Origin: Acinetobacter guillouiae CIP 63.46
GTDB lineage: Bacteria; Pseudomonadota; Gammaproteobacteria; Pseudomonadales; Moraxellaceae
Direction of reading: 5' to 3'
Assembly (NCBI RefSeq): GCF_000368145.1
Contig: NZ_KB849283.1
Location: 956,324-1,020,323, forward strand
DNA: 64,000 bases
How positions within the stretch are numbered: position 1 is the stretch's first letter; the number at the start of each line of letters is the position of its first letter. Below, one piece after another: positions 18,637 to 64,000 of the stretch. Made by a program: the position numbers and the translations under genes. The notes beneath the pieces are model-generated. The model worked only from the letters and a program-made list of their open reading frames with translations. It did not search any database and was not told the DNA's origin.

Positions 18637-18750
18637 CACTCACACCTAATTTTCCGAATGAACTTTAGTGATTATATAAATTATGAGCGGTCAACAACGG
18701 CGATTTCTTTATTGTTGCGACATGAGCTGTCGTATAAATTTAAAGCATTA

Positions 18751-19016
18751 GGGTCTGTTGACAATTCGTCTATGTTTGCGACTACGTGTGTTTTTTAGGC
18801 GATACTAGGCGCGAAATACGTAATTTAGTCATTCTAAATGAGTAGTTCGTAACGACGTAGCGGCAAAAAACACGCTAGTCCCGAAGGGTTGTGGCTAAAA
18901 TTATCTCAGCCTACGTTATGAAACTCGAAAATAGTCTCGCTATTCTCTTCGTTTCATGCCTTGCCTGCTCAATTTTAACCTACAACGCAAGCCATTTATG
19001 AAATGTCAACAGACCC
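18751..19016. repeat. MITE-like repeat, copy 1 (266 bp)
   Basis: This 266-bp element begins GGGTCTGTTGACA and ends with the inverted complement, giving terminal inverted repeats that match at 17 of the first 19 positions. A 266-bp copy lies at 35031-35296 and a 324-bp variant at 56129-56452, all in the same orientation. It has no open frame of use and contains internal inverted repeats (18788-18796 with 18865-18873; 18918-18924 with 18951-18957). It most resembles a non-autonomous derivative of an insertion sequence. The flanks suggest a TA or TNA target, but no clean duplication is seen. Confidence 0.85.
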
Positions 19017-19104
19017 TAAATAGAAATTATTGTGCTAGAAAAACCTACATTATTTGCCCATTCAATTGAATGGGCAAATAACTTAAGCAGAAACAACTAC
19101 ATTT

Positions 19105-34894: not shown

Positions 34895-35030
34895 TTTGAT
34901 TCGCAACACATTTATAAAGGAATTTATATAAAAGCAAAAATACACGTAAACCACTAGACACTATTTTAAATACAAACTGTATCCTAAAAAGATACAATGA
35001 TTGATCAGCATAGGATGATGCGTTACTTTA

Positions 35031-35296
35031 GGGGCTGTTGACAATTCGTCTATGTTTGCGACTTCGAGTGGTTTTTAGATGATACAAGGCACGAAATATG
35101 AAATTTAGTCATTCTAAATGAATAGTTCGTAACGAAGTAGCGGCAAAAACCACACTAGTCCCGAAGGGTTGTGGCTAAAATTATCTCAGCCTACGTTATG
35201 AAACTCGAAAATAGTCTCGCTATTCTTTTCGTTTCATGCCTTGTCTGCTCAATTTTAGCTTACAACACAAGCTATTTATGAAATGTCAACAGCCCC
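35031..35296. repeat. MITE-like repeat, copy 2 (266 bp)
   Basis: Same length and orientation as the copy at 18751-19016, differing at scattered positions. Both termini changed together: GGGG at the left tip and CCCC at the right tip, against GGGT and ACCC in copy 1. The internal stem arms 35068-35076 and 35145-35153 carry a matching paired change. It sits between a LysR gene (34 bases downstream) and the leftward isochorismatase operon, where a divergent promoter would be expected. Confidence 0.85.
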
Positions 35297-51093: not shown

Positions 51094-53673
51094 TTAACTT
51101 AATTTTAATTTACCAAAATCAAGTTGACCATTTTCAGCACTGATTAAGATGGTATCACCTGCTGTAAATTGACCGGCAAGGATTTGCTGAGCCAATGGAT
51201 TTTCAACCTGTTGTTGAATTGCACGTTTAAGTGGACGCGCACCATATACAGGATCAAAACCAGCATCAATCAGAATATCAAAGGCCTGATCATCGACTTT
51301 CAATCCAATGTCTCGTTCAGATAAACGTGAACGTAAACGATCCAATTGAATATCCGCAATGCCACGAATTTGTGATTTTTTCAACGAGTGGAACACCACC
51401 AATTCATCGATACGGTTAATAAACTCAGGACGGAAATGTTGTGATACGGCATTCATCACCGTTAAACGAACATCTTCATCACTCGCACCTTCACCGAGTT
51501 CACGTACATCACTTGAACCTAAGTTCGATGTCATCACAATCACGGTATTTTTAAAGTCAATCACGCGGCCTTGTGAGTCAGTTAATCGACCATCATCCAA
51601 CACTTGTAATAAGATGTTGAATACATCTGGATGGGCTTTTTCAACTTCATCAAATAACACCACACTGTACGGTTTGCGGCGTACTGCTTCAGTTAAAACA
51701 CCACCTTCTTCATAACCCACATAACCTGGAGGTGCACCCACCAAGCGACTCACCGAATGCTTTTCCATAAACTCTGACATATCGATACGGATAATTGCAT
51801 CATCACTGTCAAATAAGAAGTTACCTAAAGCCTTGGTTAACTCGGTTTTACCCACCCCTGTTGGTCCAAGGAATAAGAACGAACCACTTGGACGATTAGG
51901 ATCAGATAAGCCCGCACGTGAACGACGAACTGCATTTGAGACAGCAACCACAGCTTCATCTTGCCCAACCACACGGTTATGTAAGAAATCTTCCATATGA
52001 AGCAATTTCTCACGCTCGCCTTGTAGCATTTTTGACACAGGAATACCGGTTGCAGCACTGACCACTTCTGCAATTTCATTTTCAGTCACTTTGGTACGAA
52101 TCAGTTTCGGTTCTTCATTGACTTCCGCAACCTCTTCTTCATTCAAACGTTTTTGCAACTCTGGAATCACGCCATATTGCAAACGACTTGCTTCTGCCAA
52201 ATCACCTTCACGTTGCGCTTTTTCAAATGCAGTACGTGCTTTATCAAGTTCGATTTGCGCCTGATTTGTACCATCGACTAGACGCTTTTCTGCAATCCAA
52301 ATTTCTTCCAAATCACTATATTCTTTTTCAACATCTGCAATTTGTTTTTCCAAATGCTCAACTTCAGCTTTACTGACTGAATCTGCATCTTTTTTCACCG
52401 CTTCCAATTGCATTTTTAATTGGATTAAACGGCGGTCTAAACGGTCAAGTGGCTCAGGTTTTGAGTCAATTTCCATTTTGATACGTGATGCTGCTTCATC
52501 AATCAAATCAATCGCCTTATCTGGTAATTGACGGTCTGTAATATAGCGATGTGACATTTTCGCAGCAGCTATAATGGCAGAATCGAGAATTTGCACCCCA
52601 TGATGCGTTGCATATTTGTCTTTTAGACCACGTAAAATTGCAATGGTGTCTTCAACACTTGGTTCATCCACCAGAACTTTTTGGAAACGACGTTCCAAAG
52701 CTGCATCTTTTTCAATAAATTGACGATACTCATCCAGAGTTGTTGCACCGACACAACGTAATTCACCACGTGCCAATGCAGGTTTTAACATATTACCTGC
52801 ATCCATCGCACCATCACCTTTACCCGCACCGACAAGCGTATGTAGCTCATCAATAAACAGGATGATCTCACCATCAAATTTAGCCAGATCTTTGAGTACT
52901 GCTTTTAAACGTTCTTCAAACTCACCACGGTATTTTGCACCAGCCAGCAACGAGCCTAAATCTAATGATAAAACACGTTTACCTTTTAAGCCTTCAGGCA
53001 CCTCACCATTGATAATACGCTGTGCCAGACCTTCAACAATCGCTGTTTTACCTACACCTGGTTCACCAATCAATACCGGATTATTTTTAGTCCGACGTGA
53101 CAGCACTTGAATGGTACGACGGATTTCTTCATCACGACCAATCACTGGATCGAGTTTGCCTTCCGCAGCACGTGCCGTTAAATCTACAGTATATTTATTG
53201 AGTGAATCTCGCTGATCTTCATGGTTATTTGCCATAACTTGTTCGCCACCTCGAATATTTTCAATTGCTTTGCGTAGTTTGTCGGTTGTTACACCTACAC
53301 TGGTTAACAATGTTTTGGTTGCACCTGTTTCAGCAAGTGCCAAGATCACCCAGTCGGTAGATAAAAATTCATCTCCTGCTTTTTGAGCAAAACTATCTGC
53401 CAAATTAAGCGCACGTACAGCTTCTGGATTTAAATTGATATCCCCAGTCGGTGTTCCAATTTTTGGTGCATCAGCTAAAGCTTTTTGCAGTTTTGTTTTT
53501 AACTCAGGTAGATTGGCGCCTGACTGTTGCAACAGACTTAGATTGGATGGTTCTTCCAACAAAACGGAAAGAATATGAATACCCTCAATTGCGGTATTAT
53601 CATTACCCATTGCCTGAGATTGTGCATCAGATAAGGCTTGCTGCAGGCGGTTCGTAAATTTTTCAAATCGCAT
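51094..53673 (-). CDS. clpB: ATP-dependent chaperone ClpB
   Basis: 859 residues, full length. It is a hexameric AAA+ disaggregase working with DnaK. Order: N-terminal Clp repeat domain ([18 protein letters not shown]); AAA1 with Walker [13 protein letters not shown]; a long coiled-coil middle domain (about 400-525, from [20 protein letters not shown]); and AAA2 with Walker [13 protein letters not shown] and the pore loop GYVGYEEGG. The sigma-32-like promoter upstream fits heat induction. It is monocistronic. Confidence 0.98.
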
Positions 53674-53711
53674 TCTTGTTATTCCTCACAACAAATTTTG
53701 TACTTGAATAA

Positions 53712-53740
53712 TAAATGGGAACGTTTTTTTCGATTTCAAT
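53712..53740 (-). promoter_or_regulatory. Sigma-32-type heat-shock promoter of clpB
   Basis: Reading leftward, TTGAAA (53739-53734) and, 14 bases on, CCCATTTA (around 53719-53712) match the sigma-32 consensus TTGAAA / CCCCATTT. It lies about 40 bases upstream of the clpB ATG. Confidence 0.7.
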
Positions 53741-53915
53741 AGCAATAATGAATTAATTTATATATTTTTCAAAAACTTACCAAAACACTTAAAATAGATT
53801 TCAGTATTAATATCTGTGCTGAAACGTTATTTTTCAAGTAAGCTGATGGAAAAATATAGAGGATTAGTTTTTTAAGCGTTTGTATTTTCAACGATATGCT
53901 TTAGAGTAAGGAGTA

Positions 53916-55085
53916 TTGAGAGATTTTAGTATAAGAACAATGTTGACTTTCGGTAAATCATTAACTGTGTTAATTGCAGTATCTGCACTGTATGCCTGTG
54001 GCTACAAATCGCCAAATAGTGAAGAATTTCCGCACAAACATATCCAGCAATTAACACCGAATATATCAGGCATAGAATTAAAATGGTTTAAAACGTCTGA
54101 TGATATAAATAGAAAAGCCATCAATGAAAATTTTATCATCTACAGTTGCCCTGAAAGTGATGTGAAACAAAAACCTGTAAAAAACTTTAAAATATGTACT
54201 TACGATTTAAATCACGATCAACAGATTCAGCCTCATTCCATTGCTGCACAAACAAATCAATTTATCGATCAAATGTTCGCGCTAAATCACAATCACTTTC
54301 TCATCACTATTAAAACCTTTCAATCTGGTGTGAATGATCCAATGCAAGCCTATTTGTTCAATGCACAGACACAAAATTTAACGGCCATGACTTCATTTTC
54401 TTATACTGCATTTTCTCAGACAATTTTAGAAAAAATGGTACAGGAAAAGACCTATCAAAAGAAAGTTTTAGAATATGGCACTACGGTTTATTTTGATCCT
54501 CAATATATTTCTGCTAAAGAAGCCGCAGAAGCTCAAGAAGAACTCAAACAACAACAGCAATCTGTAATCGAAAATTTCAAAGATATTTTTAGAGACAGGC
54601 CTGAAGAGCCAAAGCGTGATTTTTCACCAGATGATTATCGTGTTCAACCTGCCGAACCTTTTAATTTAAAGCTTATTCAACAGTTAAAGCTTTATCTACA
54701 GCAATACCAAGCAGAATGCTATTTAATGGTTGATCCCGAAACACAGCTCTTAAAAACACCACAAAGTTATATCTATGGTCATGATTTTTCTCAATTTCTG
54801 CCACAGTTAGAAAATGAAATAGGGCTGTCTGAATGCAAAAAACCAGCGGAATCATCACCTGTAAATGCCAAATATCTAAAATATCAAAGTATTGATGATG
54901 TTAAGGGCTCAGGAAATCATTATGTATTTTGGTTTACGCCGATTGGTTATGATGTATTCGAAATCAAACAGCATGGGCAAAATAAACAATTTAAGCTGCC
55001 CATTGACTCTGCTTGGATATATCAAAGTAGAAATAAACTGATCATCTCCACTGATCAGACTTACTACATCATTCCACTTTATTAA
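53916..55085 (+). CDS. Hypothetical lipoprotein, about 389 residues
   Basis: I do not recognise a family. The N-terminal hydrophobic stretch ends in a lipobox ALYAC, so it is a lipoprotein. The mature part is soluble, with a Gln-rich helix in the middle and a C-terminal region with alternating strands that ends YYIIPLY. Two starts are possible: TTG 53916, close to AAGGAG, or ATG 53940, with poor spacing. Neither is ideal; the lipobox is kept either way. It is divergent from clpB. Confidence 0.65.
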   Translation: MRDFSIRTMLTFGKSLTVLIAVSALYACGYKSPNSEEFPHKHIQQLTPNISGIELKWFKTSDDINRKAINENFIIYSCPESDVKQKPVKNFKICTYDLNHDQQIQPHSIAAQTNQFIDQMFALNHNHFLITIKTFQSGVNDPMQAYLFNAQTQNLTAMTSFSYTAFSQTILEKMVQEKTYQKKVLEYGTTVYFDPQYISAKEAAEAQEELKQQQQSVIENFKDIFRDRPEEPKRDFSPDDYRVQPAEPFNLKLIQQLKLYLQQYQAECYLMVDPETQLLKTPQSYIYGHDFSQFLPQLENEIGLSECKKPAESSPVNAKYLKYQSIDDVKGSGNHYVFWFTPIGYDVFEIKQHGQNKQFKLPIDSAWIYQSRNKLIISTDQTYYIIPLY

Positions 55086-55145
55086 TGAAGTGTTTTAACC
55101 TAATAAAAACTCTAACCCACTTTATTCATTAAGTATTCAATAGCT

Positions 55146-56054
55146 TTACACTTCTGACTTTGTCGCAGAACTTTGAGAAACCGCACTATTCGCTGCGACA
55201 CTTTGAGTAATCCATACATTCCCACCAATTACAGCGCCTTGACCAATGGTAATACGCCCAAGAATGGTTGCACCTGCATAGATCACCACATTGTCTTCAA
55301 CGATTGGGTGACGTGCATATTCTTTCTGTAAGCGCCCAGAATCATCAATTTCAAAACGTTTGGCGCCAAGCGTTACGGCTTGGTAAATCCGCACATTTTT
55401 ACCAATAATACAGGTTTCACCAATCACCACACCAGTACCATGATCAATAAAGAAACCTTGATCGACTTGTGCACCCGGATGTATATCTATGCCAGTTTTT
55501 GAATGTGCAATCTCAGCAATTAAACGTGCTAACAGTGACAAGTCTTTTTTATAAAACTCATGTGCAATACGATGGTAAATAATTGCCAAAATACCCGGAT
55601 AACACAATAAAACCTCATCGACACTTCGCGCAGCTGGATCACCATCGTAGGCTGCAATAACATCTGTATCTAAAATACGGCGTAGATCTGGTAATTTTTG
55701 CGCAAATTCACTGACGATACTTTGTGCCAATACCTCAATCACATCGGCATTTTCGTTGTGCTTTTTATATTTATAATCATAGGTTAGATTGAGTTTGACT
55801 TGCTCCAATAATGAATGCAGAGTTTTCTCAAGTGCATGTGCAATATAAAAATTTTCGCTTTGTTGCCGTAGGTCAGGTGGTCCAAGTCGCATTGGAAACA
55901 AAATGCCACACAGATCATTCATAATTTTCTTAATTTCATCTTTTGAAGGTAATTCCCTACCGCCAAAGTCTTTTAAGCTTTTACGTTGAGTACGCCATTC
56001 ATTTCGAGCTTGTTGTAGCTCATCCACAATATTGGGGATATTCCATTGGGTCAT
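55146..56054 (-). CDS. cysE: Serine O-acetyltransferase (EpsC/SrpH-like)
   Basis: 302 residues. It makes O-acetylserine, the acceptor for sulfide in cysteine synthesis. An N-terminal helical domain precedes the left-handed beta-helix of hexapeptide repeats: THIVIGETCIIGK-like strands, with catalytic context in GIDIHPGAQVDQGFFIDHGT. It is longer than classical CysE and resembles the plant/cyanobacterial SrpH/EpsC type. Such genes often lie next to family 2A encapsulins. The start at ATG 56054 has AGGT upstream; the frame is open to 56099. Confidence 0.92.
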   Translation of the reverse strand: MTQWNIPNIVDELQQARNEWRTQRKSLKDFGGRELPSKDEIKKIMNDLCGILFPMRLGPPDLRQQSENFYIAHALEKTLHSLLEQVKLNLTYDYKYKKHNENADVIEVLAQSIVSEFAQKLPDLRRILDTDVIAAYDGDPAARSVDEVLLCYPGILAIIYHRIAHEFYKKDLSLLARLIAEIAHSKTGIDIHPGAQVDQGFFIDHGTGVVIGETCIIGKNVRIYQAVTLGAKRFEIDDSGRLQKEYARHPIVEDNVVIYAGATILGRITIGQGAVIGGNVWITQSVAANSAVSQSSATKSEV

Positions 56055-56128
56055 ATATTTACCTACTGAAACGACTTTCACAATCCATGCGCTTAACATG
56101 AAATTTTATTATTCACTTTGAATAAACA

Positions 56129-56452
56129 GGGTCTGTTGGCAATTCGTTTATGTTTGCGACGACGAGTGTTTTTTAGGCGATCCGAGGCACGAAATACGAA
56201 ATTTAGTCATCTAAATTAGTTGTTCGTAACGAAGTAGCGGCAAAAAACACTCTAGTCCCTCAACTACGCTTTAGACTGCAAACAAAGCAGTGCTTTGTTC
56301 TTACTCTGGGTTATCGTTAAAATTATCTCAGCCTACATTATAAAACGCAGAAATAAGCTGGCTATGCTCCTTATCCCATGCGTTACGACATATACGCCTC
56401 ATGTTCATTTTAACCTACAACGCAAACTATAATATGAAATGCTAGCAGACCC
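56129..56452. repeat. MITE-like repeat, copy 3 (324-bp variant)
   Basis: It shares the ends and much of the left half with the other two copies, but is 58 bp longer and has a different middle. The variable part includes a separate hairpin (ACAAAGCA with TGCTTTGT near 56282). The stem near its 3' end uses new arms (AACGCA/TGCGTT at 56344 and 56379; ATAAG/CTTAT at 56353 and 56370) at the place where copies 1 and 2 have ATGAAAC/GTTTCAT. It lies between the acetyltransferase and rhodanese genes. Confidence 0.8.
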
Positions 56453-56659
56453 TTGATACTATTTTATTAGCAATCTTGTAGATAAACATTCTTCGTATAA
56501 AGATATCTTTAAAAATCATTTAAACCTTATTTCAAAATAAGAATAAGCAATTCAATTTTTATTAATTTATAGAATATAGAAAATCATTATAGTTGTTATC
56601 AATACATCTGATACATCAAGACTTAGATGTAATTCTAAGTTTGAAGAAAGGCAACTGAA

Positions 56660-57148
56660 ATGACGAGTTTAAATCAACAACACTTTACCGAATTAACAAC
56701 GGCTCAAATTGAAAACATCTTTGAACAAGCAAAACAACGTGTAGAAGATCATTATTTAGAATTTACAGGGACGATTTTACCTCATGAAGCATGGGCTTTG
56801 TTTAAAGCGGGTCATGTGGTGATTGTCGACGTACGTACCAACGAAGAACGTAAGTTTGTGGGCTATGTAGAAGATACCATTCATATTCCTTGGGCAACAG
56901 GAACTGCTCTAAACCGCAATCCACGCTTTGCCAAAGAACTTGAAACTAAAATTGGAAAAGACAAGATTATTCTACTGCTTTGTCGTAGTGGCAAACGTTC
57001 CGCAGCCGCTGCAAATGTGGCTTTTAATGCGGGTTTTGAAAATATTTACAATATCGAACAAGGCTTTGAAGGCGACCTTGATGAAAATGATCATCGGGGT
57101 TCTTTCAATGGATGGCGTTTCCACAACTTACCTTGGCGTCAGGAATAA
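56660..57148 (+). CDS. Rhodanese-like sulfurtransferase
   Basis: 162 residues, single rhodanese domain. VIVDVRTNEERKFVGYVEDT is the conserved first motif, and the active-site Cys108 lies in ILLLCRSGKRSAAAAN. The protein moves persulfide sulfur, probably with the cysteine desulfurase two genes downstream. It lies upstream of the encapsulin gene in the same direction (210 bases) and behind its own short hairpin. AGAAAGG precedes the ATG. Confidence 0.93.
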   Translation: MTSLNQQHFTELTTAQIENIFEQAKQRVEDHYLEFTGTILPHEAWALFKAGHVVIVDVRTNEERKFVGYVEDTIHIPWATGTALNRNPRFAKELETKIGKDKIILLLCRSGKRSAAAANVAFNAGFENIYNIEQGFEGDLDENDHRGSFNGWRFHNLPWRQE

Positions 57149-57165
57149 AGCTTTTGCTTTATTCC
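57142..57165 (+). terminator. Hairpin overlapping the rhodanese stop codon
   Basis: A 10-bp perfect stem (GGAATAAAGC with its complement at 57156-57165) and a TTTT loop. The T run after it is weak, so it may attenuate rather than end transcription into the encapsulin gene. Confidence 0.5.
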
Positions 57166-57358
57166 CTTTATGAATTTTTATAAGCAGTTGAGAATGATTA
57201 AAGACGCTCTTAATTAGAATCAAATTAATGCAATAAATACCCGTCACAATTAAACACCAATAGCAAAATTCTTACTTTATTGGAGATGATAAAAAACAGC
57301 ATTTTTAAATCAAATGAGTAATCAATAATTAATTTCAAATACCACCAAGGATTAAAAC

Positions 57359-58291
57359 ATGGCTAAGAACCAAGAAGTCACACGCCAAGCGCTAAATGAT
57401 CAAGCAGCCCGTCAACTTGCCAATGCGACAAAAACAGTACCTCAACTCTCAACTATTACACCTCGTTGGCTGACACATTTATTGCAATGGACCCCTGTTG
57501 AAGCAGGTATTTATCGGGTCAACAAAGTCAGCAATACCGATGACATTCAGGTGGCTTGTACACAACGTGATGAAGCAACACTTCCACAAACTTTTGTCGA
57601 CTATGAAGTTAATCCACGTGAATATTTTTTAAATGGTGTTTCCACTGTACTGGATATTCATACCCGTGTTTCTGACTTATATAGTAGTCCACACGATCAA
57701 ATCAAAGAACAGTTACGTTTAACCATTGAAACCATTAAAGAACGTCAAGAAAGTGAATTGATCAATAATCCTGAATACGGCTTATTGGCTAGTGTTGCAG
57801 ATGAGCAACGTATTTCCACTTTGACGGGTGCACCCACACCAGATGATTTTGATGATTTACTGCGTAAAGTTTGGAAAGAACCAGGCTTCTTCTTAGCACA
57901 TCCCGATGCGATTGCAGCTTTTGGACGTGAATGTACTCGTCGTGGTGTTCCACCACCAACTGTAAGCCTATTTGGTTCACAGTTCATCACTTGGCGCGGT
58001 ATTCCACTGATTCCTTCAAATAAAATTCCAGTTGAAGACGGCAAAACCAAAATCATCTTGTTACGCGTTGGTGAAAAGCGTCAAGGTGTTGTTGGCTTAT
58101 TCCAACCAGGTCTTGCTGGTGAACAGGCACCTGGCCTATCTGTACGCTTTATGGGCATCAATCGTAATGCAATCGCCTCTTACTTAATCTCCTTATATTG
58201 TTCTCTTGCTGTGTTGACAGATGATGCACTCGCTGTGCTCGAAGATGTGGAGGTAGACAAGTACCATGACTATCCAACAACTTACAAGTAA
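57359..58291 (+). CDS. srpI: Family 2A encapsulin shell protein (SrpI-like)
   Basis: 310 residues with the HK97-type fold of encapsulin shells. An extended N-terminal arm (MAKNQEVTRQALNDQAARQL) precedes the core. LLASVADEQRISTLTGAPTP, DDLLRKVWKEPGFFLAHPDA and GLSVRFMGINRNAIASYLIS match the SrpI family. There is no cyclic nucleotide-binding insert, so it is type 2A rather than 2B. It would form an icosahedral nanocompartment around the cysteine desulfurase encoded next. Its 3' end overlaps the cargo gene by 26 bases. No visible transmembrane segment. Confidence 0.95.
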   Translation: MAKNQEVTRQALNDQAARQLANATKTVPQLSTITPRWLTHLLQWTPVEAGIYRVNKVSNTDDIQVACTQRDEATLPQTFVDYEVNPREYFLNGVSTVLDIHTRVSDLYSSPHDQIKEQLRLTIETIKERQESELINNPEYGLLASVADEQRISTLTGAPTPDDFDDLLRKVWKEPGFFLAHPDAIAAFGRECTRRGVPPPTVSLFGSQFITWRGIPLIPSNKIPVEDGKTKIILLRVGEKRQGVVGLFQPGLAGEQAPGLSVRFMGINRNAIASYLISLYCSLAVLTDDALAVLEDVEVDKYHDYPTTYK

Positions 58292-60233
58292 TCAATCTAC
58301 TCCAGATATTTCTTCTGATCATATTGCTGATGCACCCATCAGTGAATCTGTCATTGCACAATTGGCTGCTGAATTTTTTTCGGCTTTACCCAAGCAAAAC
58401 CCACAAGGTTTTAACTTTGATATACCCGATCAACGATCTCAAGGTATTAGTCACCAACCACAGCCTAAAGACCCGATTACTGCATTGTCTGGGCGCATAC
58501 CTGCCATTGTGCAACAGGCAAATTTAAACCCGGATTCTACACATCACTATGTAGAACCGACCGCCGACCATCCCGAGCGTAGAATTCTATCTTCTTCGCC
58601 CATTGTTGGTGGTGCAAATACTCCTGATCCATTTGCTGTCGGACAAAAGCTAGATTTGTCTTTGAATCCTACACAAATCACACAACAGACTGCACCATCA
58701 AACCTAACAACCACTGCGCCACATCAAGCTCAATCGAGTTATTACTTTTTGGATCTGCCTCACCCTGAAGTTACCAGCGCCCAAACAGTCAATACCAATG
58801 CGGCTCAAACTGATGTGCTTAAAAATCCATATGCGTTTGATGATTATCATGTGACAGATGATCAGCAATTAAAAAGTGTATTACAAGATCGTAATGACAA
58901 ACCTGCAACAGCAGCGTCTGGTTATTATTTTCTTCAATCACCCACCATTGAAGCTGTTCGTCCGCATTCAGATGTGCAAATACCAGCGAATGCTCAGAAC
59001 TATCAACCCATTGATATTTTGCAAATCCGTCGGGATTTTCCCATCCTACAAGAGCGTGTAAATGGTAAGCAATTAGTTTGGTTGGATAATGCAGCCACCA
59101 CCCATAAACCTCAGGCGGTCATCGATCGAATTTCATATTTCTATCAACATGAAAATTCGAATATTCACCGTGCAGCACATGAACTTGCAGCACGTGCCAG
59201 TGATGCTTATGAGCATGCACGTGATGTTGTTGCTCGCTTTATTGGGGCCGCTTCAGCAAAAAATATCGTCTTTGTTCGAGGTACAACAGAAGGTATTAAT
59301 TTAATCGCAAAATCGTGGGGTAAACAGAATATTCAAGCGGGAGACGAAATCATTGTGTCCCATCTTGAGCATCATGCCAATATTGTACCTTGGTACCAAC
59401 TCAGTAAAGAAACTGGTGCAAAACTCCGTGTGATTCCTGTAGATGATACTGGTCAGATTCAGATTGAGGAATTTGTAAAATTGCTCAATCCTAGAACCAA
59501 ACTGGTTTCGATTACACAGGTTTCTAATGCCTTGGGTACTGTAACGCCTACTCAAGAAATTATTGCATTGGCGCATGCAGCAGGTGTGCGAGTTTTGATT
59601 GATGGTGCTCAGTCTGTTTCACATATGCCCACCAATGTTACTGCCTTAGATGCCGATTTCTTTGTGTTTTCTGGGCATAAAGTTTTTGGCCCAACGGGTA
59701 TTGGCGCTGTTTATGCCAAGTCTGAATTACTTGATAGCATGCCTGTATGGGAAGGCGGCGGAAATATGATTCAGGATGTGACTTTTGAGAATGTGGTCTA
59801 TCAACCTGCCCCAAATAAATTTGAAGCAGGTACGGGGAATATTGCAGATGCTGTTGGCTTAGGTGCTGCCCTAGAATACGTAGAAAGTATTGGAATCCAT
59901 AACATTGCACGTTATGAACATGACTTGCTTGAATATGGTCAACATGCGCTACAAAGTGTTTCTGGTCTACGTCTGATAGGTACTGCATTAAATAAAGCCA
60001 GTGTGATGTCTTTTACACTAGCAGGCTATGAAACGGAAGAGGTCGGGAAAGTACTCAACCAATATGGTATCGCTGTGCGTACTGGGCATCATTGTGCTCA
60101 ACCGATCTTACGCCGTTTCGGTGTTGAACGTACGGTACGCCCTTCTCTTGCGTTTTATAATACCACTGAGGAAATAGATTTATTGGTTTCAGTATTGCAT
60201 CAACTCCGCCGTGCTAAACCTTATAAATCCTAA
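58266..60233 (+). CDS. Encapsulin cargo cysteine desulfurase with disordered loading domain
   Basis: 655 residues. The first about 245 are Gln/Pro/Thr-rich and probably disordered, with short islands such as ITALSGRIPAIVQQAN and two copies of a YYFL motif (159-162, 220-223); this is the shell-targeting region. Residues about 250-655 are a SufS/type II cysteine desulfurase: VWLDNAATTHKP, DGAQS with Asp446 for the PLP ring, the PLP lysine Lys472 in FSGHKVFGPTG, and catalytic Cys610 in TGHHCAQPI. It takes sulfur from cysteine. The gene overlaps the shell gene, with GGAGG 12 bases before its ATG. Confidence 0.95.
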   Translation: MTIQQLTSNQSTPDISSDHIADAPISESVIAQLAAEFFSALPKQNPQGFNFDIPDQRSQGISHQPQPKDPITALSGRIPAIVQQANLNPDSTHHYVEPTADHPERRILSSSPIVGGANTPDPFAVGQKLDLSLNPTQITQQTAPSNLTTTAPHQAQSSYYFLDLPHPEVTSAQTVNTNAAQTDVLKNPYAFDDYHVTDDQQLKSVLQDRNDKPATAASGYYFLQSPTIEAVRPHSDVQIPANAQNYQPIDILQIRRDFPILQERVNGKQLVWLDNAATTHKPQAVIDRISYFYQHENSNIHRAAHELAARASDAYEHARDVVARFIGAASAKNIVFVRGTTEGINLIAKSWGKQNIQAGDEIIVSHLEHHANIVPWYQLSKETGAKLRVIPVDDTGQIQIEEFVKLLNPRTKLVSITQVSNALGTVTPTQEIIALAHAAGVRVLIDGAQSVSHMPTNVTALDADFFVFSGHKVFGPTGIGAVYAKSELLDSMPVWEGGGNMIQDVTFENVVYQPAPNKFEAGTGNIADAVGLGAALEYVESIGIHNIARYEHDLLEYGQHALQSVSGLRLIGTALNKASVMSFTLAGYETEEVGKVLNQYGIAVRTGHHCAQPILRRFGVERTVRPSLAFYNTTEEIDLLVSVLHQLRRAKPYKS

Positions 60234-60558
60234 TTTTAAACTTTAGCGTTTAAAGCTTAGTTTTTAAGTTTTAGTTTTCAAAGACTTTATTGATCGATCA
60301 TAATCACATGCTTAATTAATTAGGCATGCGATTTTTCGAGGTGAAGATTATATGATCTATTTTTGAATAGGGTACATAATTTATCCAATGGCTAAAAACA
60401 CCCCCTAAATTCGATAAAACGCTACACTACAACAAAAAAATAAGCCACCATTTAGTTTAAATCAGTTTGATCTACCACTATTTTCATCAACCTATTTTTG
60501 CATCATTTCTAAGGCGATGTTACTCTTAACTTTAAAGTAAATATATCAACTGTACCTG
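60234..60558. other. Intergenic region after the encapsulin operon
   Basis: About 325 bases without a gene. An inverted repeat CATGC...GCATG at about 60308-60329 followed by CGATTTTT may be the terminator of the encapsulin operon. The last 30 bases are nearly the same as those at 61696-61725, reflecting duplication of the lipoprotein genes. Confidence 0.45.
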
Positions 60559-61028
60559 TTAGTAAGGACAGTAATCTTTCGAGCTAACAAATCGTGGGTC
60601 TGCATAATTCTTTTGAATGATAGCCTTCCATTTAATACGCTTATCCTCCAGCCATTTAAGCGTCTTTAAATCTTCCTGATTTGTAGTGGGTCTAATCTTG
60701 CTATAATCAGATACAAACTTCCCTATCCAACAATAGTCGGAAATTAAGCTAGGCAATGCATCATTTTCTATTTTTCCATTGAAAAGACTTTGTTCTTCAT
60801 AAGCTTTTAAAATAGACACTTTCATTAATGCTGAATCATAAATAGCATCAGATACTTCACTTTTGATTTTTTATCTATTACCTTATAAATTGGTGTATCC
60901 AAAGAGAAATAAGCACTTGAAGATTCAAATGATTGCTTTAATTCCTTACTACCTAATTCAGTAGCATTAGAACAAGCACTTAAACTAACAGAGATAAAGC
61001 AAATAAAAATTATTCTTTTAAATTTCAT
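60559..61028 (-). pseudogene. Fourth lipoprotein paralogue, frameshifted
   Basis: Two frames together match the neighbouring lipoproteins. MKFKRIIFICFISVSLSAC (lipobox LSAC) to IYKVIDKK is in the first frame. SDAIYDSALMKVSILKAYEE to DYCPY is in the next. Adding one A to the six-A run at 60867-60872 rejoins them. The full product would be about 156 residues with the C-terminal YCPY tail of its relatives. It may be a true pseudogene or a homopolymer error. Confidence 0.75.
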
Positions 61029-61152
61029 TTTAATACCTATTTGGAGCGAATAGGCGGGGAATGCCTCCCCTTCCTGTAAGTTCATTCAGTCGTTAAGTCA
61101 CAATCTAGAAAAGAATAAAGATCTAGGTTTAAACTCTATAATATAATTAACT

Positions 61153-61620
61153 TTATTTCACATTTTGACATGGAAGATCGAATACTCTAGGATCTTCATT
61201 TAAAACTATTTTTTCCCATTTTTTTTGTTTCATGCCTAGCCAGTCGTAAAACTCTTTATAAACCTCTCCTTGTAGATTGGCTTCATTTTTATACTTATCA
61301 GAAAGTATGAATTTCCCCATTACACATAACGAGTTAATTTGTGTAATTCCAATATCATTTTCAAATTGATCATCTTTACCTGAATCAAATAAAACTCTTT
61401 TAAAAAACATTGCCTTGGATATTGAGGAATCGTAAATACTGTTTGTTAAATCAGATGGCTCTTGTTTTAATGCTTTTGCATAAACTACAGTATCATAACC
61501 AATCATTATTGGTGCTAAGGGTATTTGTAATCCAATTTCTTCTTTAGGAGATATATTACTTCTACAACCTGTAAAAATTAATAAAAAACATATAAATATA
61601 ATCTTTTTTGCATCCAACAT
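61153..61620 (-). CDS. Lipoprotein, diverged member of the array (candidate immunity protein)
   Basis: 155 residues. The signal peptide ends in LLIFTGC (Cys19). The mature part keeps the array layout (IYDSSISKAMFFKRVLF, then SLCVMGKFILSDKYK and a Trp-Lys-rich end) but is clearly divergent from the others. It is probably a periplasmic, membrane-anchored protein. It lies 105 bases from the next paralogue. The family is not one I recognise. Confidence 0.7.
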   Translation of the reverse strand: MLDAKKIIFICFLLIFTGCRSNISPKEEIGLQIPLAPIMIGYDTVVYAKALKQEPSDLTNSIYDSSISKAMFFKRVLFDSGKDDQFENDIGITQINSLCVMGKFILSDKYKNEANLQGEVYKEFYDWLGMKQKKWEKIVLNEDPRVFDLPCQNVK

Positions 61621-61725
61621 TTACCAGTTCCTTATGTTAGTATAATTACTTTCATCGATCTATTTTTTATCATTTTCAAGATTATATTGCCCATAACTTT
61701 AAAGTAAATATGTCGGCTGTACCTG

Positions 61726-62187
61726 TTAGTAAGGGCAGTAATTTTTCACGGATGTATTCTTGCTAAAATTTTTACTAATATGCTGGCTCCATATAGCGCG
61801 CTTTTTATCGAGCCACTGCAATGCTTCAACATCAGCTAAAGAGGGTTTCGGAGCAAATGGTTTGTAATCTGTCACAAATTTCCCCATCCAACAATAACCA
61901 AAAAAATTCTTAGGATCCGTATGGTCTTCTACAACATACTTTTCAGGAAATTGTTGTTCATACGCATACATTGAAAACAGTTTGGCTAATGAAGATTTAT
62001 ATATTGCATCAGAAACCACATTTTTTTTGGTTACATCAGCAGCTCGATATACTGGAATATCGTAGCTAATAAACACTTCACTTGTTTCAATATAATTTTG
62101 TACAAAGTCTGCTTCCGACTCATTTGCAGAACAACCTAAAGTAATAAGAGGAAGTAAAGCAAAGAGAGTTAATTGTCTAAAAATCAT
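61726..62187 (-). CDS. Lipoprotein paralogue 2 (candidate immunity protein)
   Basis: 153 residues. The signal peptide ends LITLGC (Cys19), then SANESEADFVQNYIETSEVF. The conserved core is DAIYKSSLAKLFSMYAYEQQ, and the tail is DYKPFAPKPSLADVEALQWL and SVKNYCPY. Two Cys in the tail (CWMGKF and NYCPY) could form a disulfide. It is very similar to the gene at 62221, from which it is separated by 33 bases. Confidence 0.75.
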   Translation of the reverse strand: MIFRQLTLFALLPLITLGCSANESEADFVQNYIETSEVFISYDIPVYRAADVTKKNVVSDAIYKSSLAKLFSMYAYEQQFPEKYVVEDHTDPKNFFGYCWMGKFVTDYKPFAPKPSLADVEALQWLDKKRAIWSQHISKNFSKNTSVKNYCPY

Positions 62188-62220
62188 ATTATTCTATTCA
62201 TCATATCTTGGGATTAAATA

Positions 62221-62679
62221 TTAGTAGGGACAGTAATTTTTAACGGACGTATCATTCCCAAATTTTTTACTAATATGCTGAGCCCATATAGCGCGCTTTT
62301 TATTCAGCCATTGCAATGTTTCAACATCTACTAAAGAAGGCTTGGGTGCAAAGGATTTATAATCATTGATGAATTTTCCCATCCAACAATAGCCAAAGAA
62401 GTTTTCAGACATCATCTTGTCTTCGAGATTGTAAATAGGGAATAGCTCTTTCTCATAACTTTCTAAAAAATAAAGCTTAGCTAATGATGATTTATAAATT
62501 GCGTCAGCCATCGCATTTTTCTTAGTCGTGTCAGCTAACCTATAAATAGGTGTATCAATATTGATAAATACATCACTTGTTTCTACGTATTTTTGAATGT
62601 CTTTTTTTGTTATTTCATTAGCAGAACATCCTATCGATACCAGTGCTATTAATATTAGAGTTAAAAATTTAAATTTCAT
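62221..62679 (-). CDS. Lipoprotein paralogue 1 (candidate immunity protein)
   Basis: 152 residues, same family: lipobox VSIGC (Cys18), VSDAIYKSS-like core (MADAIYKSSLAKLYFLESYE), YCWMGKFINDYKSFAPKPS and terminal SVKNYCPY. Its start codon lies two bases after the stop of the 208-residue gene upstream, so the two are translationally coupled. That coupling is the main reason to treat it as the cognate partner of that gene. Confidence 0.78.
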   Translation of the reverse strand: MKFKFLTLILIALVSIGCSANEITKKDIQKYVETSDVFINIDTPIYRLADTTKKNAMADAIYKSSLAKLYFLESYEKELFPIYNLEDKMMSENFFGYCWMGKFINDYKSFAPKPSLVDVETLQWLNKKRAIWAQHISKKFGNDTSVKNYCPY

Positions 62680-62681
62680 AA

Positions 62682-63308
62682 TTACCCACTTCCATTATTG
62701 TCAAACTGCTTCAAGTCTACAACAGAACCTTCCCCCTTATACGTTCCATCTCCTGTTAACTGTTTTAACATTCCCGAATGATAATCTTCATTAAATATAT
62801 TTTTAAATGTGGATCTGTTTACATATAGAGGACAATGATTATTTTCAGCCAATTGCCGAAGATGTACTATAGTTTCTGGAACAGTAATATTTTTTGCAAT
62901 TCCTATTACTGCCAATACATCAAAAAAACTAAATCCTGTTTTAAGTCTGATTGAAAAGGTTTGTTTTTGAAATTGAGCAACTAATTTACTGGCTTCATGC
63001 ATTGAGTGTTTCCGTACATACTGTTGAAACTTTACATACATCATAGTGTTGAAGGAAAGCTTATTAATCATTCCATCACCAAATTTGTTTATGTCATATT
63101 CCATACCAAAACGTAAAGCCAATAGAAACTCTACTTTATTTGTACGTTCGAGCCTTTGCCAATGATCTTCGTCAAAGAAAAAATTGTAAGGTGCAGCAAT
63201 GTAGTAATTACCAACTTTAAACGCTGGATTACACGTTACAGTGGAATAGTTACAAACTTCAATATCCTTAGGAAACATACCCTTATCAGTTACAATAACG
63301 TCAGCCAT
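62682..63308 (-). CDS. Unknown 208-residue protein, candidate T6SS effector
   Basis: I do not recognise a family. No signal peptide. It starts MADVIVTDKGMFPKDIEVCN. A mid-protein segment TGFSFFDVLAVIGIAKNITV is hydrophobic, and the end is SVVDLKQFDNNGSG. It lies six bases after the PAAR gene and is coupled to lipoprotein genes downstream, the layout expected of an effector delivered to the periplasm with lipoprotein immunity proteins. No enzymatic motif is visible to me. Confidence 0.6.
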   Translation of the reverse strand: MADVIVTDKGMFPKDIEVCNYSTVTCNPAFKVGNYYIAAPYNFFFDEDHWQRLERTNKVEFLLALRFGMEYDINKFGDGMINKLSFNTMMYVKFQQYVRKHSMHEASKLVAQFQKQTFSIRLKTGFSFFDVLAVIGIAKNITVPETIVHLRQLAENNHCPLYVNRSTFKNIFNEDYHSGMLKQLTGDGTYKGEGSVVDLKQFDNNGSG

Positions 63309-63314
63309 AATTTT

Positions 63315-63878
63315 TTACCCTAAGTCATCATCTAGTGGAGGCATTGGTTTAGAAAGGTCATAAATTATTAGCTCTACCTGTTCCTCTTGATCACCTGAAT
63401 CAATATGAACTGTATTTCCATCTTCATCAGTTTTCCCATCAATAACTTCACCGTTTGCACGTTTCAATTGGTATGGAAAATCAACTAACGGTTTCTGAGT
63501 AGCTTTATCTAACAATTGGTGTTGCAAACCAAAATTTGTTGAGATTACTTTATCTATAAAGCTATTTTGTAAAGGTTCTTTTGAGCCTGAAGAACGTCTA
63601 TAATTCTCACCTTGGCTTGTTCCAACAACATGATCTTGTTTAGGTAAAATTTTAGCTCCACAAGTCAATAAGTCATCAACATAAGCAACAGCTTTGCCAT
63701 CCATAATAATATGATCATGGCTTTTAATAATTTCAGACCAACATTTGCACTTAGGGCAAAAGTGACCATCTCCAGCACGTAGAAATAGATTTCCCATTTG
63801 AGAGGTTCGTTGTTGTGTTGCTTGAATGATACCTCCATGATTTGTCATAGAGTTATGAATTGCAAAACCTTTAGCCAT
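63315..63878 (-). CDS. PAAR domain protein (T6SS spike tip/effector adaptor)
   Basis: 187 residues. The N-terminal PAAR domain (about 1-100) shows SMTNHGGIIQATQQ and HDHIIMDGKAVAYVDDLLTC with the His and Cys zinc-binding residues. A C-terminal domain (PLVDFPYQLKRANGEVIDGK, then TDEDGNTVHIDSG) resembles the transthyretin-like segment found in VgrG/PAAR adaptors. It starts at ATG 63878, with AAGG upstream, and overlaps the stop of an upstream gene. It probably tips the type VI secretion spike and carries the next protein. Confidence 0.85.
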   Translation of the reverse strand: MAKGFAIHNSMTNHGGIIQATQQRTSQMGNLFLRAGDGHFCPKCKCWSEIIKSHDHIIMDGKAVAYVDDLLTCGAKILPKQDHVVGTSQGENYRRSSGSKEPLQNSFIDKVISTNFGLQHQLLDKATQKPLVDFPYQLKRANGEVIDGKTDEDGNTVHIDSGDQEEQVELIIYDLSKPMPPLDDDLG

Positions 63879-64000
63879 GATTAACACCTTCTTGGCACAA
63901 AAAGCCTTCAGGGGCCTTATCACCGATAAAGATATTTATAGCTACAGAGTTATTAGGGCTATCGACAATCTTATCACCATTCTCTAAGTGGCTTCCTACC
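63871..64000 (-). CDS. 3' end of an unidentified gene (T6SS-linked)
   Basis: Only the last about 43 codons are in the window, ending NIFIGDKAPEGFLCQEGVNH plus Gly. HLENGDKIVDSPNNSVAIN looks like part of a PAAR-like or VgrG-associated C-terminus. The stop codon overlaps the PAAR start (ATGGCTAA), so the two are in one operon. The full gene lies to the right of the window. Confidence 0.55.
   Translation of the reverse strand, partial: VGSHLENGDKIVDSPNNSVAINIFIGDKAPEGFLCQEGVNHG

Follow-up and report, generated by a model that had tools for sequence, protein, structure and literature searches.

A family 2A encapsulin cluster with a cysteine desulfurase cargo and two sulfur accessory genes in Acinetobacter guillouiae

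We analysed 64,000 nucleotides of the Acinetobacter guillouiae CIP 63.46 genome (contig NZ_KB849283.1, positions 956,324 to 1,020,323; hereafter the window, whose own numbering is used throughout). Four genes at 55146-60233 encode a serine O-acetyltransferase (SAT) on the minus strand and then, all on the plus strand, a rhodanese, the shell protein of a family 2A encapsulin and its cargo, a cysteine desulfurase (Table 1). The cluster is a member of an already described system. An earlier reading of the same letters (the original prediction) had grouped these genes as a sulfur compartment operon. An open-reading-frame check found all four as open frames where that reading had placed them, and each matched a profile, which bears out the grouping. 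SAT and rhodanese are the most enriched accessories of family 2A operons, according to an excerpt of PMC8346489. The assembly comprises 4.9 Mb in 16 contigs, and the contig with the cluster is 2.3 Mb long.

Table 1. Features of the encapsulin locus; MITE, miniature inverted-repeat transposable element; TIRs, terminal inverted repeats; NTD, N-terminal domain
Feature	Position	Strand	Basis
SAT, CysE/EpsC type	55146..56099	-	NF041874, PF00132, PF06426; divergent from rhodanese
MITE-like repeat, 324 bp, TIRs GGGTCTG...CAGACCC	56129..56452	.	genome copies; ends of 8 other copies inspected
Single-domain rhodanese, motif LCRSGKRS, Cys at residue 108	56660..57148	+	PF00581, E 1.2e-13
Hairpin, 10-bp stem and 4-nt loop, overlaps rhodanese stop codon	57142..57165	+	RNA fold
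Family 2A encapsulin shell protein, 310 aa	57359..58291	+	NF041162, PF19307, identity to 8t6r_A
Overlap of shell 3' end and cargo 5' end, 26 bp	58266..58291	+	ATG position
Cargo, encapsulin-associated SufS-type cysteine desulfurase, 655 aa	58266..60233	+	NF041166, TIGR01979, PF00266
Cargo NTD, residues 1-249, fast-evolving, presumed loading domain	58266..59012	+	type I versus type II divergence
Cargo motif LAAEFF (residue 33)	58362..58379	+	matches 'LARLANEFFS' in an excerpt of PMC8049743
Cargo motif YYFL, first copy (residue 159)	58740..58751	+	matches 'AASPYYFLDG' in an excerpt of PMC8049743
Cargo motif YYFL, second copy (residue 220)	58923..58934	+	motif pattern

Shell, cargo and their overlap

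The shell protein matched NF041162, the model for family 2A encapsulin shells, with 544.9 bits (cut-off 380), and the SrpI-like family PF19307 with 354.2 bits (cut-off 22.8, E 3.8e-106). The original prediction had proposed such a hidden Markov model check, and its assignment of the shell to family 2A held. At E up to 0.01, Pfam placed the SrpI-like domain alone in the protein (residues 59-300) and found no cyclic-nucleotide-binding domain. Over its full length the shell is identical at 281 of 310 residues (90.6%) to PDB entry 8t6r, which we take to be the A. baumannii shell of Benisch et al. 2024, and on the strength of this identity it is predicted to self-assemble into an icosahedral shell. 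Three A. baumannii chromosome-sized records also encode shells 90.6% identical to that of the window. The nearest named shells, among the best 80 of 588 named relatives, are from Acinetobacter and 97-98% identical.

The cargo scored 908.7 bits (cut-off 800) on NF041166, the model for cargo cysteine desulfurases of family 2A encapsulins, and 549 bits (cut-off 475.1) on the SufS-type model TIGR01979; PF00266 also matched. Its NTD carries counterparts of both motifs, LARLANEFFS and AASPYYFLDG, that an excerpt of PMC8049743 gives for the cargo of the SrpI system. Together with the NF041166 score, this confirmed the predicted identity of the cargo. We read 61 Acinetobacter loci, 60 of them fetched and the last being the window. 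The pattern LAxx[FLM]F occurred in 56 of their 61 cargo proteins and in 46 of 51 from elsewhere, and all 61 had at least one copy of [YF]YFL, with two copies in 51. The loading motifs are thus conserved although the remainder of the NTD sequence is not. The catalytic motif HHCAQP was found in 60 of the 61 proteins, the exception being a split gene (L088), and SGHK in all of them. The window's own genome encodes one other related desulfurase, which is 31% identical to the cargo.

The presence of the cargo followed that of the shell. In a survey of 175 Acinetobacter genomes, 60 held a shell (one broken) and 115 did not; the cargo (E < 1e-150) was found in all 60 of the former, split in one, and in none of the latter. 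The predicted 26-bp overlap between the shell and cargo genes was upheld both by the gene coordinates and by a check of start codons, as the first 60 codons of the cargo frame contain no other in-frame ATG than the one within the overlap. Among loci carrying shell and cargo on one strand, an ATG giving the 26-bp overlap was present in 60/60 from Acinetobacter and in 107/111 overall. Such conservation fits translational coupling, and shell and cargo are probably translated as a coupled pair.

Quick-method trees were built for the shell and the rhodanese. Acinetobacter shells formed one group (support 100), dividing into type I (91) and type II (93); 49 of the loci read are type I and 12, including the window, are type II. 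Compared between the types (with L088, L089 and L092 left out), the shell differs at 9.3% of amino acids, the enzyme domain of the cargo at 17.5% and the cargo NTD at 67%. We considered whether the two lineages had recently exchanged the shell gene, which might have produced this disparity (9% in the shell versus 35% in the whole cargo), and rejected the idea, since the shell (0.56) is almost as diverged at fourfold-degenerate sites as the cargo (0.63), with values from 0.56 to 0.67 across shell, cargo, rhodanese and SAT. As these sites are similarly diverged in all four genes, the low amino-acid difference of the shell is attributable to strong constraint.

Two loci hold decaying copies. In L092 (genome G134) an unbroken cargo gene stands next to a shell gene interrupted by stops; in L088 (G017) the shell gene is unbroken and the adjacent cargo gene is split in two frames.

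Several known systems were compared with the window. Acinetobacter systems of the 8t6r type (A. nosocomialis L111, A. calcoaceticus L113 and A. seifertii L110) share with it the cargo family, the 26-bp overlap and the types of accessory gene. They differ in having rhodanese, SAT, shell and cargo in that order on a single strand, whereas the SAT of the window is inverted ahead of the rhodanese with a MITE between, and their cargo NTDs differ strongly from those of its type. PDB entries 9bje, 9bix and 9bhu, presumably family 2B encapsulins, share the shell domain, but their chains have 470-477 residues against 310. 'Major membrane protein I' shells (PDB 9ksl, 8wol and 8won) belong to family 2A by sequence and are more distant relatives, at 476-496 bits. 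The family 2A shell SrpI of Synechococcus elongatus (PDB 6x8m/6x8t; PMC8049743) scored 511.6 bits over residues 9-305 and is 75.9% identical over residues 11-305, and an excerpt of PMC8049743 shows the same two NTD motifs in the cargo desulfurase of that species. The S. elongatus gene is plasmid-borne, in contrast to the window cluster on its 2.3-Mb contig. A further excerpt from the literature names A. baumannii with two other pathogens as carrying family 1 and family 2 encapsulins.

Accessory genes, gene order and loss of the compartment

In 46 of the 49 type I loci (one with a broken shell) the order was rhodanese, SAT, shell, cargo on one strand. The three exceptions were a locus cut by a contig end (L073), one without rhodanese (L089) and one with shell and cargo alone (L090). 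The last two lie about 20 kb apart in a single genome (G046), which thus has two shell and cargo copies, one with SAT and the other alone; a rhodanese-SAT pair stands about 10 kb beyond them. In ten of the 12 type II loci SAT was divergent and near clpB; L033 was cut by a contig end, and L043 had rhodanese, shell and cargo in order with no SAT nearby.

The best 80 of 588 named relatives, hence near ones, were then compared; 25 were Acinetobacter, apparently already in the survey, and 55 came from elsewhere. In 45 of these 55 the order was again rhodanese, SAT, shell, cargo on one strand, with about 1 kb between rhodanese and SAT in six. Seven had rhodanese before the shell with no SAT in reach, one 3-kb contig had SAT before the shell, and two loci, a 3-kb contig and one from Azotobacter vinelandii, had neither accessory gene. 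A divergent SAT was found in none of the 55. The window departs from this common order in having SAT on the other strand. As most of these 55 loci keep all four genes on one strand and none is divergent, the arrangement of the window is most simply explained as derived.

The original prediction had placed the rhodanese immediately upstream of the shell on the same strand. The strand and the order are correct, but the two genes are separated by 210 bp and a hairpin follows directly on the rhodanese stop codon. Its fold over an 87-nt stretch had a z of -3.2, and 6 of the 12 type II loci had z values under -2. The hairpin has no clean T-run and is absent from the list produced by a terminator scan, and a control stretch before the shell reached -3.0 in one of 12 loci (L042). 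It is a possible terminator or processing site; given the 6/12 count, the T-run, the scan and the control, a terminator is suggested here rather than asserted. Beyond the ribosome-binding site, a loose GGAGA-GAT block was the sole recurrence upstream of the shell when the 12 type II loci were aligned. No known RNA element reached the Rfam gathering score in 53600-61200, and a promoter search was uninformative, with 14 sigma-70-like sites against 17.5 expected from shuffles. The description of the cluster as one operon needs dividing: shell and cargo overlap as one unit, but rhodanese and SAT form a separate accessory module that is itself split into divergent units.

Both accessory genes accompanied the shell across the genus. 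The rhodanese (at least 50% identity) was present in 60/60 shell-bearing and 5/115 shell-less genomes, one copy (L062) being shortened by an in-frame stop, and SAT (at least 59% identity) in 60/60 and 9/115. The SAT of the window scored 162.3 bits on the EpsC model NF041874 (cut-off 150). An apparent loss of the rhodanese catalytic Cys in some relatives was discarded: a first pattern count had missed it in 6 of 117, and alignment shows it in all 117, those of the five shell-less genomes included. None of the 175 Acinetobacter genomes gave a match to SufE (PF02657), although the search was positive for 5 of 14 control genomes. The SufS-type cargo is thus left without its classical acceptor, and the rhodanese is a candidate for that role.

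The rhodanese was also considered as a second cargo and rejected, because matrices derived from the cargo motifs scored 117 rhodaneses no better than shuffled sequences. Mean scores for the LAxEFF matrix were -16.0 for rhodaneses, -14.2 for shuffles and +46.5 for the cargo proteins from which it was made; those for the YYFL matrix were -9.9, -10.0 and +32.3. Without a cargo-loading motif, the rhodanese probably stays outside the shell.

The five shell-less genomes with a rhodanese (G024, G151, G004, G045 and G097; loci L173-L177) carry it between clpB and an OsmC-type gene. A whole-genome search found no shell in them, and no cargo was found; four keep SAT. One of these genomes, G004, is 94% complete and 7% contaminated. 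A search of the 500 bp downstream of the rhodanese in these loci detected no shell or cargo remnant (best E 0.067). Rhodaneses formed one group (99), in which type II and the five shell-less loci made one branch (99); the five fall inside the type II branch (SH-aLRT, an approximate likelihood-ratio test, 96 and 99), in a tree that does not fix the number of losses. Among 20 genomes whose clpB flank was checked, the flank met the OsmC gene or its neighbour without SAT or rhodanese in six; one had SAT, one had rhodanese and 12 were different. These data are consistent with, though not proof of, arrival of the cluster at the clpB-OsmC junction in the type II lineage. The rhodanese/SAT pair and the shell/cargo pair behave as two modules.

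What the compartment may do

We consider it very probable that the cluster is a family 2A (SrpI-type) encapsulin with a dedicated SufS-type cargo and two accessory sulfur genes, which would keep a sulfur reserve in the shell. Through its LAxEFF and YYFL motifs, the NTD of the cargo would bring the enzyme into the self-assembling shell, where entering cysteine would be desulfurated to alanine. The sulfur would most likely accumulate within the shell as polysulfide or elemental sulfur. A SufS-type enzyme enclosed without SufE would fit slow release of sulfur into the lumen, or its hand-over to the rhodanese. The rhodanese, from outside, would most likely accept or remobilize sulfane sulfur, and SAT may supply O-acetylserine so that the sulfur is recaptured as cysteine. 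Benisch et al. in 2024 reportedly found elemental sulfur stored in such a compartment. Sulfur encapsulin systems are described as storing sulfur in an excerpt of PMC10960027, and by analogy with these relatives this strain may do the same.

Organosulfur genes adjoin the cluster in related loci, which we counted in favour of this reading. The flank read was up to about 9.5 kb per locus, and shorter where a contig ended or to the right of the cluster in the window. Of the 61 Acinetobacter loci, 17 had three or more of tauA, tauB, tauC and tauD, and 16 had a polar amino-acid ATP-binding cassette (ABC) importer, whose proteins pass no substrate-specific cut-off; 28 loci, including the window, had neither. 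The type II locus L043 (G086) has an organosulfur neighbourhood on both sides, with tauABCD followed by rhodanese, shell and cargo and then by flavin mononucleotide (FMN) monooxygenase and SfnB-type genes of sulfur acquisition. Cut-offs were passed by its TauC, TauD, one of the two SfnB proteins and, on one of two models, TauA, but not by TauB. The tau genes are oriented differently in L043 and in 16 type I loci. As neighbours are shared by descent among related species, these counts represent few independent events.

Some results weigh against the reading proposed above or parts of it. The shell also passed the family 2B model NF041163 (432.3 bits, cut-off 400), although its score on the 2A model is higher (545 versus 432). 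SAT fell below the cut-off of the cysE model TIGR01172 (173 bits versus 210.65). The genus survey tallies related genomes and not independent events. As far as the window extends, which is 3.8 kb past the cargo, it contains none of the taurine or amino-acid importer families noted in other loci. Finally, five genomes keep the rhodanese, catalytic Cys included, without the compartment, which implies a function of the rhodanese that is independent of the shell.

A possible though rather unlikely refinement is that in this genus, where SufE was not detected, the rhodanese and SAT work as a sulfane-sulfur module of their own, which takes over persulfide from the enclosed SufS-type desulfurase. In the lineage of the window this module would have moved to the clpB-OsmC junction and been retained, with its catalytic Cys, while some species lost the compartment. 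If so, natural strains that lack the compartment and retain the rhodanese would separate the rhodanese's own role from storage.

Rather unlikely, in our estimate, is an insulated sulfur-transfer device without a store, an idea proposed in an excerpt of PMC8346489, in which the shell lets the partner rhodanese alone take sulfur from the desulfurase inside and thereby directs it to particular targets. The near-constant companionship of rhodanese and shell (60/60 versus 5/115 genomes) and the SufE count (0/175) favour it, as does the rhodanese's want of a loading motif, which would probably leave it outside. However, the rhodanese persists in five shell-less genomes, and storage of elemental sulfur has been reported for such a compartment (Benisch 2024, as cited in an excerpt of PMC10960027).

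The shell was found in 2 of 50,697 phage records (CAKLQH020000001.1 and CAKLQF020000001.1, 'Acinetobacter phage MD-2021a', 329 and 379 kb). Both have sufS beside the shell, look bacterial and are probably bacterial contigs. One reading of the shell gene makes it the remnant of a phage capsid beside an unrelated desulfurase, as the HK97 fold common to encapsulin shells and phage capsids (an excerpt of PMC8346489) and these two labels might suggest. It is nearly refuted by the family 2A score far above cut-off, the conserved overlap with the cargo and the 9% amino-acid difference between two lineages whose synonymous sites are strongly diverged; a PHROGs search of the flanks was not part of the analysis. 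Among plasmid records the shell occurred in 32 of 72,556, three of which are chromosome-sized Acinetobacter records (3.7-4.1 Mb).

The compartment is a sulfur organelle of a described kind that occurs in Acinetobacter, including A. baylyi (L107), a species convenient for laboratory work. What the comparison adds is of modest interest: a derived arrangement, losses of the compartment, the absence of SufE matches and the organosulfur genes nearby. It also makes a question about the rhodanese testable, namely its role beside an encapsulated SufS-type desulfurase when SufE has been found nowhere in the genus, because at one and the same site in the chromosome each part is present in some species and absent from others.

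Repeat element and flanking genes

The original prediction had SAT divergent from the rhodanese with a MITE copy between them, and both parts agree with our results: the repeat is a real MITE, being short, multi-copy and bounded by TIRs, and is peripheral to the system. It is separated from the rhodanese start by 207 bp and contains no open reading frame of at least 80 aa. Of 57 first-look candidates, 40 were scored. The genome holds at least 52 matching pieces, this copy included, and in at least 18 the match extends over 300 or more of the 331 bases of the query. The copy in the window has no target duplication (ACA / TTG), and 4 of 8 other copies inspected have TA on both sides. Two further copies or fragments lie in the window at about 18750-19017 and 35030-35226. 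The middle of the repeat (about query bases 133-180) is unmatched in these two and in other genome copies.

A search with a defence-system library gave matches only between the cargo and the desulfurases SspA and DndA. Between clpB and SAT, 53916-55085 (+) encodes a 389-aa lipoprotein-like protein with no Pfam family above cut-off, and a 57% relative stands at the same place in L179. Past the cargo, 60559-63923 (-) holds tandem lipoprotein-like paralogues of about 150 aa, of which 61726-62187 and 62221-62679 are 63% identical. The gene at 61153-61620 looks related to these, and 60559-60825 with 60825-61085 looks like a further copy in two frames. The paralogues adjoin a PAAR-motif protein (63315-63923) and a 208-aa protein, and we take the whole to resemble a type VI secretion effector/immunity cluster in which the immunity genes have been duplicated.

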